Positions 15,065 to 31,407 of a stretch of DNA of 32,171 nucleotides are shown piece by piece. The DNA comes from Alphaproteobacteria bacterium (GTDB taxonomy: Bacteria; Pseudomonadota; Alphaproteobacteria; Rhizobiales; Aestuariivirgaceae). The translations under genes were made by a program, and so were the position numbers. The notes under the pieces are model-generated. The model ran no database searches and was not told where the DNA came from. It worked only from the letters and a program-made list of their open reading frames with translations. The DNA lies in the NCBI GenBank assembly GCA_024279095.1, contig JAJRRY010000218.1, positions 1-32,171 of the forward strand, read 5' to 3'. Each line of letters begins with the position of its first letter. Positions within the stretch are counted from its first letter, which is position 1.

Positions 15065-15073
15065 CGATTTCTG

Positions 15074-15089
15074 TTAACCGATTGGTAAC
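15074..15089 (+). promoter_or_regulatory. CtrA-box-like site (one mismatch), upstream of the candidate small RNA and rcdA
   Basis: TTAA-N7-GTAAC differs from the CtrA consensus TTAAN7TTAAC by one base. The same bases form an imperfect dyad, GTTAACC-gatt-GGTAAC. It lies in the 408-bp gene-free region between rsmB and rcdA. In Caulobacter rcdA is, to my recollection, in the CtrA regulon, which makes the location suggestive. Confidence 0.4.
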
Positions 15090-15094
15090 GATAT

Positions 15095-15214
15095 TTCCGT
15101 CATCATGGTTAACGTAATCCAGATATCTGGATTTCTTCCGAGTGGCTCCTGTCCACTCTGTTTGACGCCTCCCTGTTAGACTGCGAGCCGCGCATGTTTG
15201 CGCGGCTCTTTTTT
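15095..15214 (+). ncRNA. Candidate small RNA gene between rsmB and rcdA
   Basis: Within 120 bases and with no open frame there are three consecutive stem-forming elements on the plus strand. The first is a perfect 18-bp palindrome at 15116-15133 (AATCCAGAT/ATCTGGATT). The second is a hairpin with GAGTGG (15140-15145) and CCACTC (15153-15158). The third is a strong intrinsic terminator at 15185-15214. Another terminator-like hairpin ends just before, at 15064, so the second terminator must serve a transcript that begins between them. The CtrA-box-like site at 15074-15089 is in promoter position. The 5' end is not fixed. Alternatively, the 18-bp palindrome is a protein-binding operator. Confidence 0.45.
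15185..15214 (+). terminator. Strong intrinsic terminator with no gene directly upstream
   Basis: GAGCCGCGC (15185-15193) pairs perfectly with GCGCGGCTC (15200-15208) around a 6-base loop and is followed by six T. It is 254 bases past the rsmB stop and oriented away from it, 126 bases before rcdA. Confidence 0.9.
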
Positions 15215-15267
15215 GTCTGGCCCGGTGCTTGCATCGGGCCTGCCGCCGGGGAACAAGGTGGTTCATC

Positions 15268-23835: not shown

Positions 23836-23936
23836 AGAGCCCAGGGCCGGATGCTGGTTTTCGGAAATTATGATATTTCAGAAAAATCAATGACTTGATA
23901 TTCCCTGCAGGATCTTTTTCCGCATCCGTCACGGCC

Positions 23937-23952
23937 GTTAACATTTTTTTAG
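23937..23952 (+). promoter_or_regulatory. CtrA-box-like site (one mismatch) upstream of the flagellin gene
   Basis: GTTAA-N7-TTAG, or on the other strand CTAA-N7-TTAAC, differs by one base from the CtrA consensus. It is 153 bases before the flagellin ATG in an AT-rich patch. It is a reasonable site for the flagellin promoter because the hairpins downstream leave no room for a promoter nearer the gene. Chance is not excluded, given the T run. Confidence 0.35.
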
Positions 23953-23988
23953 GACTTTCCCGGCAGCATCGGTGCATCACATGACGAA

Positions 23989-24062
23989 TTGAGCTTGAGA
24001 CGCATCTCGCTCAAAGGCATGAGGCCGCTTTCGTCATGTCGGTGCGAGTCCGACATGTTTTT
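23989..24062 (+). promoter_or_regulatory. Two-hairpin flagellin 5' leader, second hairpin terminator-like
   Basis: Hairpin 1 has TTGAGC (23989-23994) with GCTCAA (24009-24014) and an inner GAGA/TCTC stem. Hairpin 2 is a perfect 8-bp stem, CATGTCGG (24035-24042) with CCGACATG (24050-24057), followed by five T. Only 42 bases separate the T run from the flagellin ATG, so the flagellin promoter should lie upstream and both hairpins should be in the mRNA leader. This suits attenuation or binding by a protein such as FlbT, which acts on flagellin leaders in Caulobacter. Confidence 0.55.
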
Positions 24063-24104
24063 CCCCAACAGTACAGTAACGCGTAACAGAAAGGGGCTAG
24101 AAGC

Positions 24105-25031
24105 ATGTCTAGCATCAGGACGAACGCTGCCGCCATGACGGCGCTCCAGACCCTCACCCAGACCAACAAGGAACTGGAGCAGACCCAGAATCGTATCTCC
24201 ACCGGCTACCGTGTCTCTACCGCTACGGACAATGCCGCCTACTGGTCCATCGCCACCACCATGCGCTCGGACAACAAGGCGCTGAGCACGGTGAAGGATG
24301 CTCTCGGTCTGGGCAAGGCGACCGTGGACGTCGCCTATACGGCTCTGGAAAAGTCCATTGATGTCGTGACCGAAATCAAGGCCAAGCTGGTGGCCGCCCG
24401 CGAACCGGGCGTGGACCGGGCCAAGATCCAATCCGAAATCGACGAACTGCAGAATCAGCTGACGAGCATTGCCGAATCGGCTTCCTTCTCCGGCGAGAAC
24501 TGGCTGAAGGTCGATTCCTCGGCCGCGTCCTACAATGCCACGAAGTCGGTGGTCGCTTCCTTCACCCGCACCAGCACCGGCGTGTCGATCGGCACCATCA
24601 GCATCAACATCGACAACATCAAGCTCTTCGACGCGTCCGCGACGGCCACCGGTATCCTGGACAAGGAGAGCACCACGACCAACGGCGGCGTGACCTATTC
24701 CGTCTCCACCCTGGACATTTCCACGCTCACGGATTCCGCTGCCGATCTAGCCGATCTGGAAGAGATCATCGGCACGGTCGATACTGCCATTTCCTCGATG
24801 ACCACCGCCGCCAGTGATCTTGGTGCCGGCAAGAAGCGCATCGAGATGCAGACCGATTTCGTGAGCAGCCTCATGGATGCCATCGATCGCGGTATCAGCC
24901 AGCTCGTCGATGCGGACATGAACGCCGAATCCACCCGCCTGAAAGCTCTGCAGACGCAGCAGCAGCTGGGTGTCCAGGCGCTGAGTATCGCCAACGCTTC
25001 CAGCCAGACCATCCTCTCGCTCTTCCGGTAA
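24105..25031 (+). CDS. Flagellin
   Basis: This 308-residue protein is a compact flagellin. The N-terminal D0/D1 part contains MSSIRTNAAAMTALQTLTQT and NRISTGYRVSTATDNAAYWS. The C-terminal part contains GAGKKRIEMQTDFVSSLMDA and ALQTQQQLGVQALSIANASS, ending in SLFR. The middle, about residues 150-235, is short and rich in Ser and Thr, as in the alphaproteobacterial Rhizobium/Caulobacter type. It is exported by the flagellar apparatus and assembled as filament. Only one copy is visible, whereas relatives with the same gene order often carry several in tandem. AAAGGGG precedes the start. The leader and the 3' region both contain strong secondary structure. Confidence 0.96.
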   Translation: MSSIRTNAAAMTALQTLTQTNKELEQTQNRISTGYRVSTATDNAAYWSIATTMRSDNKALSTVKDALGLGKATVDVAYTALEKSIDVVTEIKAKLVAAREPGVDRAKIQSEIDELQNQLTSIAESASFSGENWLKVDSSAASYNATKSVVASFTRTSTGVSIGTISINIDNIKLFDASATATGILDKESTTTNGGVTYSVSTLDISTLTDSAADLADLEEIIGTVDTAISSMTTAASDLGAGKKRIEMQTDFVSSLMDAIDRGISQLVDADMNAESTRLKALQTQQQLGVQALSIANASSQTILSLFR

Positions 25032-25187
25032 GACCCTGAGCGGCAGCCGTCTCCTACCTCTACCTCCCCTTATCCTTCCCTACCTCCAGCAGGGGACGGC
25101 TGCCGATCTTCCGGAGCTTTCCGGAAACGACCCGCTCTTGTGGTTTTACTCCGTCAACTTGCCGCGACATTTTTGTCGCGGCCTTTT
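25032..25187 (+). ncRNA. Structured flagellin 3' region, candidate 3'-UTR-derived small RNA with anti-SD loop
   Basis: Three hairpins fill the 156 bases after the flagellin stop. SL1 pairs 25041-25055 with 25091-25105 (15 bp, one G-U). Its 35-base loop is almost free of G and contains ACCTCT once and ACCTCC twice, the anti-Shine-Dalgarno sequence of 16S rRNA. SL2 pairs TTCCGGA (25109-25115) with TCCGGAA (25120-25126). SL3 is the terminator at 25161-25187. No open frame is present. The architecture of stable stems with exposed CCUCC and an intrinsic terminator is known from several alphaproteobacterial small RNAs; function here is inferred. Confidence 0.55.
25161..25187 (+). terminator. Intrinsic terminator of the flagellin transcript
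   Basis: GCCGCGACA (25161-25169) pairs perfectly with TGTCGCGGC (25174-25182) around a TTTT loop and is followed by CTTTTG. It separates flagellin from fliF, so fliF needs a promoter in 25188-25279. Confidence 0.9.
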
Positions 25188-25279
25188 GTGTTCCCCTTTC
25201 GTTCGATCTGTCCGCAATCCTCGCGCAAGATTGGTCGCCGATCATTCACCCGGCAACGTTTTCCAATCAGGGGCAGACC

Positions 25280-26998
25280 ATGGGCTGGCGCGAGAATCTT
25301 TCCCGTCTTGGCGCAAATCTGGCGCAACTCGGATATCGCCGTCTGGCCGCTCTGGCCGTGGCCGGCGTTCTCATGACCGTCGCCGTCGCGGTTTCCGGCT
25401 ACATGCTGACCCGGCCGAACTTCGAAGTGCTTTATACCGGCCTGTCGCCGCGTGACGTGAGCGCCATAGGGGCCGCCCTGAGCGAGGCGCGCATCCGCTA
25501 TGACGTCAGCGAGGACGGAAAGACCGTCAAGGTGGCCTATGGCGAGGCGCCCCGGGCCCGCATGCTGCTTGCGGAGAAGGGGCTGCCCCGTTCCGCCCGG
25601 GCCGGTTACGAGCTGTTCGACAACATCGGTGCACTGGGACTGACCTCCTTCATGCAGGAAGTGACGCTGATCCGCGCACTGGAAGGCGAGCTGGCGCGTA
25701 CCATTCAGTCGATCACGGGTGTCAAGGCGGCGCGCGTGCATATCGTGCTGCCCAAGAAGAACAGCTTCCGGCGCACCTCCCGGGAGCCTTCCGCTTCGGT
25801 GCTCATCCGTACCGATTCGGCCTATTCCCCGTCTTCCGCCGATTCCATCCGTTATCTGGTGGCCGGCGCGGTGCCGGGGCTGTCCGTGGGGCGGGTTACC
25901 GTGCTCAACACCGACGGAACCCTGCTGGCCAGCGGCGATGATCGCAAGTCCGCCGCCCCCCGGCGTCTCGTGGACCTGGAAATGACCGTCTCCCGGCGCA
26001 TCCGCGACAACGTGCGCAGCACGCTCATGCCCTATCTGGGAGCTGGCAACTTTCAGGTCTCCGTGGCTGCCCGTCTGAACACCGACAAGAAGCAGGTCAG
26101 CGAGACCATCTATGATCCCGCTTCCCGCGTCGAACGTTCGATCCGCGACATCAAGGAGAAGACCTCCTCCATCAATTCCAGCAAGTCCGCCGCCACGTCC
26201 GTGGAGCAGGAGATCCCGGAAAACGAGACGGCGGCAGGTCCAGCCAGCAAGAACAAGGAAAGCCGCGAGCGCAAGGAGCGACTCACGAATTACGAAATCA
26301 GTTCGCGCCGGATCAGCACGGTCAGCGATGGCTATGACATCGCCCGTCTCTCCATAGCCGTGGTTGTGAACCGCAAGAGTCTGGAAACGGTACTCGGCCG
26401 CAAGCTCTCCGACGAGGAGCTGGAGCAACAGAAAAAGGAAATCGCCGATCTGGTCCGCACGGCAGCCGGCATCAACACGGCCCGGGGCGACCAGCTGAAA
26501 ATCACGGCGGTGGATTTCATCCAGTCGAAGAGTCCGTTGCAGCCGGTACCCGGCCCAAGCATCGCCGAATATGCCATGAAGATGGCACCGGCGGCCATCA
26601 ATTCCCTGGCCCTGCTGGCGGTGACCGGAATCGTCATCTGGTTCGGTGTGCGGCCTGCCGTGCAGGCCCTCACCGCGTCGCCGCAGGTGGTGAAAGAGGA
26701 GCTGGCCGAAGGCGTGGACAGGCTCGAGGCCCCAGCCGCCGCACCTCAGCTGGAGGGCCCGGAGGGTGCTTCGGTCGCGCAGGCAGACCCGCAGCAGGCC
26801 CCCACCTCCACAGCGGGCACAGCGGGCGCTCCGGCGGATGCTTCCGCCGTGCAGGAGGGCGACGATAATCTCATTGTCGATCTGGTCGATTCCGCTGCCC
26901 GTCTGCCGTTGAAGCGGCTGCGCCAGATGGTCGAATACGACGAGAAACAGGCCGCGGCAGTCATCCGCGAATGGCTGCGTGAGGAGGATGCCGCATGA
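25280..26998 (+). CDS. fliF: Flagellar MS-ring protein FliF
   Basis: This 572-residue protein has a first membrane helix at about 22-43 and then the YscJ/FliF ring domains, with YTGLSPRDVSAIGAALSEA, AEKGLPRSARAGYELFDNIG and GVKAARVHIVLPKKNSFRR. A second helix lies at about 437-458. The last 26 residues, including LRQMVEYDEKQAAAVIREWL, form the conserved FliG-binding tail, so a fliG gene must exist elsewhere. Its position after flagellin is unusual compared with the rhizobial order. It overlaps the FliH-like gene by four bases. The 92-base upstream gap shows no convincing promoter. Confidence 0.97.
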   Translation: MGWRENLSRLGANLAQLGYRRLAALAVAGVLMTVAVAVSGYMLTRPNFEVLYTGLSPRDVSAIGAALSEARIRYDVSEDGKTVKVAYGEAPRARMLLAEKGLPRSARAGYELFDNIGALGLTSFMQEVTLIRALEGELARTIQSITGVKAARVHIVLPKKNSFRRTSREPSASVLIRTDSAYSPSSADSIRYLVAGAVPGLSVGRVTVLNTDGTLLASGDDRKSAAPRRLVDLEMTVSRRIRDNVRSTLMPYLGAGNFQVSVAARLNTDKKQVSETIYDPASRVERSIRDIKEKTSSINSSKSAATSVEQEIPENETAAGPASKNKESRERKERLTNYEISSRRISTVSDGYDIARLSIAVVVNRKSLETVLGRKLSDEELEQQKKEIADLVRTAAGINTARGDQLKITAVDFIQSKSPLQPVPGPSIAEYAMKMAPAAINSLALLAVTGIVIWFGVRPAVQALTASPQVVKEELAEGVDRLEAPAAAPQLEGPEGASVAQADPQQAPTSTAGTAGAPADASAVQEGDDNLIVDLVDSAARLPLKRLRQMVEYDEKQAAAVIREWLREEDAA

Positions 26999-30124: not shown

Positions 30125-31407
30125 AGGCGATGCCCGCCCTTTTCGCGCCGGATGTCGCCCCCCGTACGAATCCGGGGGACCGGAAGATTGCCGACGGGGA
30201 GAGTGGAAGGCAGGAAACGGGCTTCACTCGGGAACTCCGGAAACGGGAGAATCCCGAACGGCAGATCCGGGCATCCGGCGAACCTGTGAAAGACGGCAAG
30301 GAATCCCGGGGCACCGGTGGCGGCATGAAAATGGAGGGAGCCCCCTCCCTCCCGGATCCGGAGCTTTCCGCCCGGCCTGACGCGGCTGGAGATCTGTACG
30401 CTTCCGGACATGTCCGGCGCGGACGACCCATGGGGCGTCAGGGCGATACCCCTGCCGAAACATTGCCGGACATGGATGCGGAGATGTCGAAAGGGATCAT
30501 CCCTGCGGTAGAACTTTCCAGCCTGCCGTTGCAGGCTGCACCACTGGTAGCCGGCACTCGAATCGGGAAGGTGGAAGGGGGCGCAATGCCGGAAACGGAT
30601 CCCGTCCTTTCCATCGACGGCCTGCTCCCGGATGCCGGTGCAGAGGCCGAAGAGACAATGGATTCCGCCTTGGCCGGAGAGCTGCGAACCGGACGGACGG
30701 AGGTTGCCGATGGCAGGGGGCGCCTGCGCCATGCCCGGGAGATGATGCGCCTCGAAACCGTCGGGGGCGAGGAACGAATGCCCATGAAAGTCGTCTCGGC
30801 TTCCGTCGAGCGGCATCTGGAGCCTGCAGGCACGCTGATCCCCGGCGGGCGGGAAGGCCTGTGGCGCGGTGCAGCCGCGCAGGTGCTTGCAGCTCTCGAC
30901 GAGGGGCTCGTGCCCCATGCCCTCGCCGGCCTGGACGGGACGCGCACGGGCGGTCCGAAGGTGATCCGCAATCTGGAGATTCAGCTTCACCCGGCCAGCC
31001 TGGGTACCGTGACGGCGCGTCTGACCATCACCGGCGGCAACATGGAAATCACCATCAGCGTTCCCGACCGTCGGTTGGCAGATCAGATGGAGCGCGGCCT
31101 CGATCAGCTCGTGCGTCGCATCCGCGCCCGGGATCACGGATCCGGGCAAACGGTTGTTCACCTTGTCACCGAGCCGCAGAATCAGCCTCTTGATCGCTTG
31201 CAGCAGCAGCTTCCCGGGCAGCCGGCGGCAGACGGCAGGCCGGCCTTCGGTGGCCACGCCAGGGAACAGGCAACCGGCGGTCATGACGGCAGAGGAGGAC
31301 ACGGAAGTGCCGACGCCCATGCTGAAGGAGGTACAGGCCATGACGGGATGCGGGATCCGGATGGTGCTGGCCATGGTGGCCGTCGTGGCGGTGTACTCTA
31401 TCTCTGA
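30121..31407 (+). CDS. fliK: Flagellar hook-length control protein FliK (MotD-like)
   Basis: From ATG 30121, preceded by GGAGGA, the protein has 428 residues. The first ~280 are low-complexity, charged and poorly conserved, as expected for the FliK ruler region. The Flg_hook domain (about 284-350) is clear: LEIQLHPASLGTVTARLTIT, MEITISVPDRRLADQM and then LDQLVRRI. After it comes a Gln-rich segment and a Gly/His-rich tail (for example GGHDGRGGHGSADAHAEG). FliK measures hook length and switches export specificity at FlhB. In S. meliloti this position was first named motD. Its last 68 bases overlap the transglycosylase gene. Confidence 0.88.
   Translation: MKAMPALFAPDVAPRTNPGDRKIADGESGRQETGFTRELRKRENPERQIRASGEPVKDGKESRGTGGGMKMEGAPSLPDPELSARPDAAGDLYASGHVRRGRPMGRQGDTPAETLPDMDAEMSKGIIPAVELSSLPLQAAPLVAGTRIGKVEGGAMPETDPVLSIDGLLPDAGAEAEETMDSALAGELRTGRTEVADGRGRLRHAREMMRLETVGGEERMPMKVVSASVERHLEPAGTLIPGGREGLWRGAAAQVLAALDEGLVPHALAGLDGTRTGGPKVIRNLEIQLHPASLGTVTARLTITGGNMEITISVPDRRLADQMERGLDQLVRRIRARDHGSGQTVVHLVTEPQNQPLDRLQQQLPGQPAADGRPAFGGHAREQATGGHDGRGGHGSADAHAEGGTGHDGMRDPDGAGHGGRRGGVLYL

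Follow-up and report, generated by a model that had tools for sequence, protein, structure and literature searches.

The described systems closest to the element analyzed here are bacterial small RNAs (sRNAs). The alpha-R8 sRNAs (Rfam RF00519, suhB/mmgR), which include MmgR of Sinorhizobium meliloti and SisA-D of Caulobacter, are defined in the accessible part of one report by three features, namely, a hairpin of low stability, the sequence UUUCCUCCCU in unpaired form, and a terminator, and a reporter system in E. coli with Caulobacter Hfq is described there for SisA (PMC12559287); the accessible part of a review places the anti-Shine-Dalgarno (anti-SD) motif of MmgR in its first loop (PMC7143759). 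FliX of Escherichia coli derives from the 3′ end of the fliC mRNA and lowers flagellar output, and the pairing described in the available portion of that paper lies inside coding sequences (PMC10578931). The alpha-r14 or cuckoo sRNAs (NfeR1, SmelA075, and SmelA099) are the classic RNAs with anti-SD loops; going by the available portions of two papers, they have several hairpins, keep the loop with its ultraconserved CCUCCUCCC, and vary the stems (PMC3927594, PMC10746234).

The window, that is, the whole 32,171-nucleotide stretch of DNA analyzed, is contig C32 of a 2.4-Mb genome (G000) that encodes an Hfq gene. Hairpin I, hairpin II, and an intrinsic terminator all lie between the flagellin stop codon (TAA, at 25031) and fliF (25280) (Table 1). 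Compared by position, this locus resembles that of FliX, as a conserved module (25149 to 25187) lies where the flagellin mRNA ends and a candidate sRNA taken from it would be tied to flagellin transcription; the available description of FliX differs in that its pairing lies inside coding sequences, and the RNA considered here is a candidate predicted from sequence. The likeness to alpha-R8 sRNAs is one of layout, comprising a weak hairpin predicted in the window's own sequence, the unpaired CUCC stretch, ACUU, and the intrinsic terminator, with variable spacing between CUCC and ACUU. With the alpha-r14 sRNAs, the locus shares a hairpin loop bearing anti-SD letters, but only one such hairpin is present, CCUCCUCCC is absent from hairpin I, and the loop is not conserved, which is the opposite pattern.

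Table 1. Features of the flagellin gene and its 3′ region (window positions)
Feature	Position	Strand	Basis
Flagellin gene whose mRNA carries the 3′ UTR (Flagellin_N and Flagellin_C)	24105-25031	+	Pfam
Hairpin I (15-bp stem; 35-nt pyrimidine loop, TACCTCC twice)	25041-25105	+	Sequence, fold, genus comparison
Hairpin II, 7-bp stem and GCUU loop	25109-25126	+	Fold
Match to RF00519 (suhB/mmgR, alpha-R8), 32.5 bits, under the 41-bit gathering score	25125-25197	+	Rfam, permissive settings
Weak 4-bp hairpin ahead of the unpaired bases, matching the alpha-R8 layout	25132-25143	+	Fold, Rfam alignment
Mostly unpaired UUUUACUCCGUCAACUU, candidate seed	25144-25160	+	CUCC/ACUU conservation in all seven flagellin UTRs
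Intrinsic terminator, 9-bp stem and U tract	25161-25187	+	Terminator scan, genus alignment

Relatives were drawn from a group of 11 genomes, including that of the window, belonging to a genus which we take to be Thermopetrobacter or one close to it. Flagellin of this type was present in six of them, with seven genes in total, as one genome (G003) carries two copies (G003a and the paralogue G003b), and seven flagellin 3′ regions were compared. The flagellins of G003 are those of Thermopetrobacter sp. TC1 (L012 and L013), in which both flagellin UTRs bear the conserved module. The nearest relative by flagellin is G001 (91% identical). A wider comparison took in 76 flagellin loci from Hyphomicrobiales; five of them are genus UTRs and belong to the seven as well. 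To gauge chance occurrence, we used 523,640 bases of the window's genome, made up of the window itself and a sample of 40 other contigs or parts of contigs. Two other elements flank the flagellin gene and its UTR. A leader hairpin, CATGTCGG..CCGACATG, at 24035 to 24057 (+ strand) recurs with few changes and conserved flanks upstream of all seven genus flagellin genes; it is possibly a promoter-region element or one of FlbT type. Upstream of fliF, CTCGCGCAAGATTG (25220 to 25233, + strand) is perhaps a flagellar promoter element; slightly altered copies of it follow the flagellin terminators in G001, G002, G005, and G007.

The original prediction held that hairpin I displays an exposed, multisite anti-SD loop which slows the translation of other flagellar genes. 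Its structural part checks at every coordinate. The stem pairs 25041 to 25055 with 25091 to 25105 (15 bp, one G.U), the loop (25056 to 25090; 5 A, 19 C, 1 G, and 10 T) is open in the predicted fold and holds TACCTCC at 25061 to 25067 and 25081 to 25087, and the second 7-bp hairpin and terminator follow. The flagellin 3′ region is also highly structured, as had been proposed, with a predicted fold of −66.4 kcal/mol for the 156-nt interval from 25032 to 25187 (z score, −7.7; none of 200 shuffles as good). Likewise, GGAGGTA at 31327 to 31333 is real and could pair with the loop; after a gap of 6 nt comes the ATG (31340) that opens a reading frame encoding an SLT transglycosylase domain. Among 29 hairpins in the 523,640-base sample with stems of at least 13 bp and loops of 25 to 45 nt, only hairpin I had two CCTCC in its loop, another point in favor of an anti-SD loop. 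When the loop was shuffled 100,000 times, keeping its C/T-rich composition, 16% of the shuffled loops contained two CCTCC and 0.03% contained two TACCTCC. Paired ACCTCC 4 to 30 nt apart are not rare across the whole genome (17 places versus 54 for a reversed control pattern).

Conservation of the CCTCC loop among relatives had been named beforehand as a test that could refute the anti-SD loop, and the loop is not kept. TACCTCC occurs in one of the seven genus flagellin 3′ regions, that of the window's genome, and was found within 150 nt of the flagellin stop in none of the 76 Hyphomicrobiales loci, five of them being genus UTRs already counted. As for the stem, in G001 a GC-rich hairpin is predicted after the stop codon with stem letters partly similar to those of hairpin I, and its loop is C/A-rich and lacks CCTCC; the predicted hairpins of the other five genus UTRs are unrelated to hairpin I. 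That the loop is not kept also runs counter to the alpha-r14 precedent, in which the loop is kept and the stems vary.

Pairing predictions were similarly unfavorable to the loop. Against the first 150 of 322 automatically called, noisy background starts from the genome, 53 of 60 shuffled loops paired at least as well as the real one. Pairing was somewhat stronger with 17 flagellar-cluster starts than with the full background set (P = 0.021), as the anti-SD loop would lead one to expect, but a plain anti-SD showed a similar bias (P = 0.047), and therefore the preference may reflect better start calls and stronger SD sequences in the flagellar cluster. The anti-SD letters used were those of the consensus, because no 16S rRNA gene could be located in this assembly. 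No preference for flagellar-cluster starts was seen for the module (P = 0.20) or for MmgR (P = 0.27), and 42 of 60 shuffles paired with the start regions at least as well as the module. On conservation and these pairing controls, the pyrimidine loop was rejected as a seed, and translational slowing of flagellar genes by it, including through the flagellar ribosome sites proposed as targets, is improbable. The loop, unseen in any relative examined, is probably not the working part, and in our reading hairpin I is a lineage-specific accessory, useful at most as a stabilizer or extra pairing surface.

Pairing of the C/U-rich 3′ UTR with the ribosome-binding site of its own flagellin mRNA, giving feedback on flagellin translation, was also considered. 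Uninterrupted complementarity (G.U allowed) to the gene's own start region reached 10 pairs in G001 (8 of 200 shuffles as good) and 11 pairs in G002 (2 of 200), but the pairing sites differ between these two genomes. Only they clearly beat the shuffles: in the window's genome, where the comparison with the flagellin mRNA was limited to the start region, 6 pairs were found and 166 of 200 shuffles did as well, and for the other four UTRs between 51 and 109 of 200 did so. Such cis-regulation is very improbable and was rejected.

What is conserved lies further downstream. All seven genus flagellin genes are followed, at the terminated 3′ end of their message, by a module which in the window consists of the anti-SD core CUCC (25149 to 25152), ACUU (25157 to 25160), and the terminator stem (25161 to 25182) with its TTTT. 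Each of the seven UTRs contains ACUUGCCGC, and in each CUCC lies no more than 18 nt upstream of ACUU, with variable spacing; the register CUCCGU-NN-ACUUG is identical in only four. Outside the module, no 5-mer is common to all seven UTRs, and the longest common substrings of pairs were below the shuffle maximum in 20 of 21 comparisons and equal to it in one (G007 with G002). The module has been kept with flagellin behind 60 to 482 nt of unalignable UTR, including in both G003 copies, whose downstream sequence, by eye, is without the fliF-type start of the others. As the seven UTRs are related, their agreement does not represent seven independent events.

Conservation is among the highest in the terminator stem. 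In the seven sequences, both partners have changed at two of its pairs, 92.9% of cells are paired, and the paralogue G003b accounts for the four that are not. Support from covariation is modest, since 27 of 500 shuffles do as well. This conservation is what would be expected of a plain 3′ UTR, in which a sequence-conserved intrinsic terminator ends the transcript, GC-rich hairpins shield an abundant mRNA from exonucleases, and CUCC and ACUU persist by descent or for terminator efficiency, with no action in trans. We regard this as a close rival of the sRNA reading and nearly as likely. Standing against it, the unpaired bases beside the stem (ACUU and CUC or CUCC) are kept while the remaining UTR cannot be aligned. 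A further point concerns how seldom these bases precede a terminator in the same genome. Of 81 terminator-like sites in the 523,640 bases, CTCC followed by ACTT was found upstream of only three (none in the reversed control), namely, the flagellin module, the genuine MmgR, and a site on contig C24 in the 3′ UTR of a small exported protein, so that apart from flagellin it precedes just 2 of the other 80. This background is, if anything, raised, because earlier matches had guided the choice of C24, C80, and many more of the contigs sampled. The scan used looser rules on more sequence and replaced a stricter one of the first 262,348 bases, which had given 22 sites, two with the CTCC and ACTT arrangement (flagellin and the C24 3′ UTR).

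The same letters are not a signal genome-wide. The pattern CTCCSTN{0,7}ACTTG was found at 59 places in the 11 genomes versus 146 for the reversed control and was ruled out as such. The exact two-base spacing accounted for 20 of the 59, where about 7 would be expected if the eight spacings were equal, a comparison made post hoc. Of 15 distinct sites inspected by eye, 11 precede terminator-like hairpins, but many of these loci had been chosen with RF00519.

A covariance model (R1) built from five modules found the remaining two, those of G002 and G007, approximately 460 to 500 nt after the flagellin stop. The G002 module scored 29.8 bits (E value, 8.4e−4) and that of G007 a weak 22.7 bits (E value, 0.038), each the best R1 match of its genome; R1 matches of similar or lower E value than that of G007 in other genomes cover the terminator only. 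At an E value of up to 0.001 and with stricter filters, R1 matched 4 of 297 genomes of the order, three of them from this genus, and in the fourth the match covers only model positions 26 to 56, which are the terminator. The genus flagellin mRNAs also have unusually long 3′ UTRs. In five genus loci, 78 to 500 nt separate the flagellin stop from the first terminator. The median distance is 37 nt for the 35 loci from outside the genus at which a terminator was detected; the scan detected none in 36 of the 76 flagellin loci. One of these 76, L058 from a Phyllobacteriaceae flagellin, is the only locus outside the genus with CTCC and ACTT before the flagellin terminator, carrying CTCCTCCCAAGAACTT and then a terminator approximately 44 nt after the stop.

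Given its layout, the module was compared with RF00519. The permissive match in the window had an E value of 3.7e−5 for the 301 bases searched, and, falling short of the gathering cutoff, it was not reported when the entire window was scanned with Rfam at the gathering threshold. Among the other six modules, three scored amid unrelated terminators (G001, 18.1 bits; G003a, 17.3 bits; G005, 13.2 bits), and the remaining three were absent among the matches listed. A genome scan with RF00519 scored 150 of 199 first-look candidates; the window's own module was absent among the matches listed, and we take it to lie outside those 150. The alpha-R8 10-mer UUUCCUCCCU is not intact in the window's module, which has UUUACUCCGU (8 of 10 matching), and fewer positions match in the other modules. 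A Rho-independent terminator is present directly downstream, as in alpha-R8 sRNAs, and the predicted folds of this segment and of genuine MmgR have a two-hairpin layout in common.

Unlike the known alpha-R8 RNAs, the module lies within the 3′ UTR of flagellin, where the scan revealed no promoter, and the genome holds a genuine alpha-R8 copy elsewhere (G000:C80:4912-4984; 66.5 bits). Genuine copies above the cutoff were present in 9 of the 11 genus genomes, and in their alignment the 10-mer and ACUUG are invariant and the spacing between them is variable. A reciprocal model (R2) was made from these genus MmgR copies. It recovered no flagellin module among six matches in 47 sources (E value of up to 10), and none of its three matches in the 76 flagellin loci (E value of up to 5) was at a flagellin 3′ UTR, a test weakened because the R2 alignment split the terminator stem, leaving 5 pairs. 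Conversely, R1 matches to the MmgR copies (12 to 19 bits) could not be separated from other terminators. Direct homology with alpha-R8 was therefore rejected on the failed R2 test and the indistinct R1 matches, and because of the low RF00519 scores and the R2 result, the module at most works like an alpha-R8 RNA and is not filed as a member. The negative R2 test also speaks for a plain 3′ UTR, as do the lack of a target preference for the module and the absence of any σ70-type promoter in a scan from 23840 to 25300, by which a separate sRNA promoter was discounted.

The explanation we favor, held at a little less than even confidence, is that the module is a genus-specific, Hfq-type 3′ UTR sRNA module acting like the alpha-R8 siblings or like FliX; that it is of either kind is not proven. 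Most likely, the flagellin mRNA would be cut to yield an sRNA that binds Hfq, with the module as its 3′ portion. The flagellin message would end in the unpaired CUCC stretch, ACUU, and the GC-rich intrinsic terminator, and cleavage of the mRNA by an RNase would leave a 3′ fragment bearing the terminator, which Hfq could hold by its U tail. Once flagellin is transcribed, the CUCC core may then pair with the SD regions of other mRNAs. Such pairing would parallel that of the alpha-R8 sRNAs with UUUCCUCCCU, and FliX, derived from fliC, would be the parallel for action within the flagellar program. The sequence with its conservation pattern, the layout, and the presence of an Hfq gene are observed; transcription, processing, Hfq binding, targets, and the direction of regulation are inferred. 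The original idea that the flagellin mRNA end is a source of an sRNA with an anti-SD core survives in an altered form, in that a different element (25149 to 25187), and not the hairpin I loop, has the alpha-R8 layout.

A more specific version appears unlikely, in which the flagellin 3′ UTR has given rise to a genus-specific sRNA whose seed and terminator are alpha-R8-like, an extra sibling in the alpha-R8 network that is released only while the filament is being made. If it were true, flagellin transcription would compete with or add to MmgR in controlling mRNAs for carbon storage and others. In E. coli, as FliX shows, the flagellin mRNA supplies a regulator, and the module raises the question of whether this principle arose in a second lineage with another type of seed. 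In the literature searched, which covered few subscription journals and was judged by titles and the starts of abstracts, no flagellin 3′ UTR sRNA in Alphaproteobacteria was found among the matches listed. Within the same coverage, nothing linked flagellin with MmgR or with an anti-SD sRNA, and no title concerning Thermopetrobacter was among the matches listed.

Several further sRNA-like elements were recorded. BjrC1505 (RF02356), an alphaproteobacterial sRNA, was identified in the window at 15067 to 15215 (+ strand; 76 bits versus a cutoff of 50), and its 3′ half (CCUCCCUGUUAGAC plus the terminator) also weakly matches the MmgR model. At the C24 site (L133:10736-10816), the 3′ UTR of a gene for a small helical exported protein finishes with an MmgR-like module (RF00519, 28.5 bits, under the cutoff), a candidate for a second 3′ UTR sRNA in this genome. 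UAUCCUCCCUGAACUUG or a similar sequence precedes a terminator in L163, L175, and L178 (from G006, G004, and G002, respectively) and in L179 (G003), all under the RF00519 cutoff, and these are possible further siblings. In addition, 26 partial R1 matches were evenly spaced at roughly 73 nt across G004:C118:7892-9751, an arrangement which suggests a palindromic tandem or CRISPR-type array.
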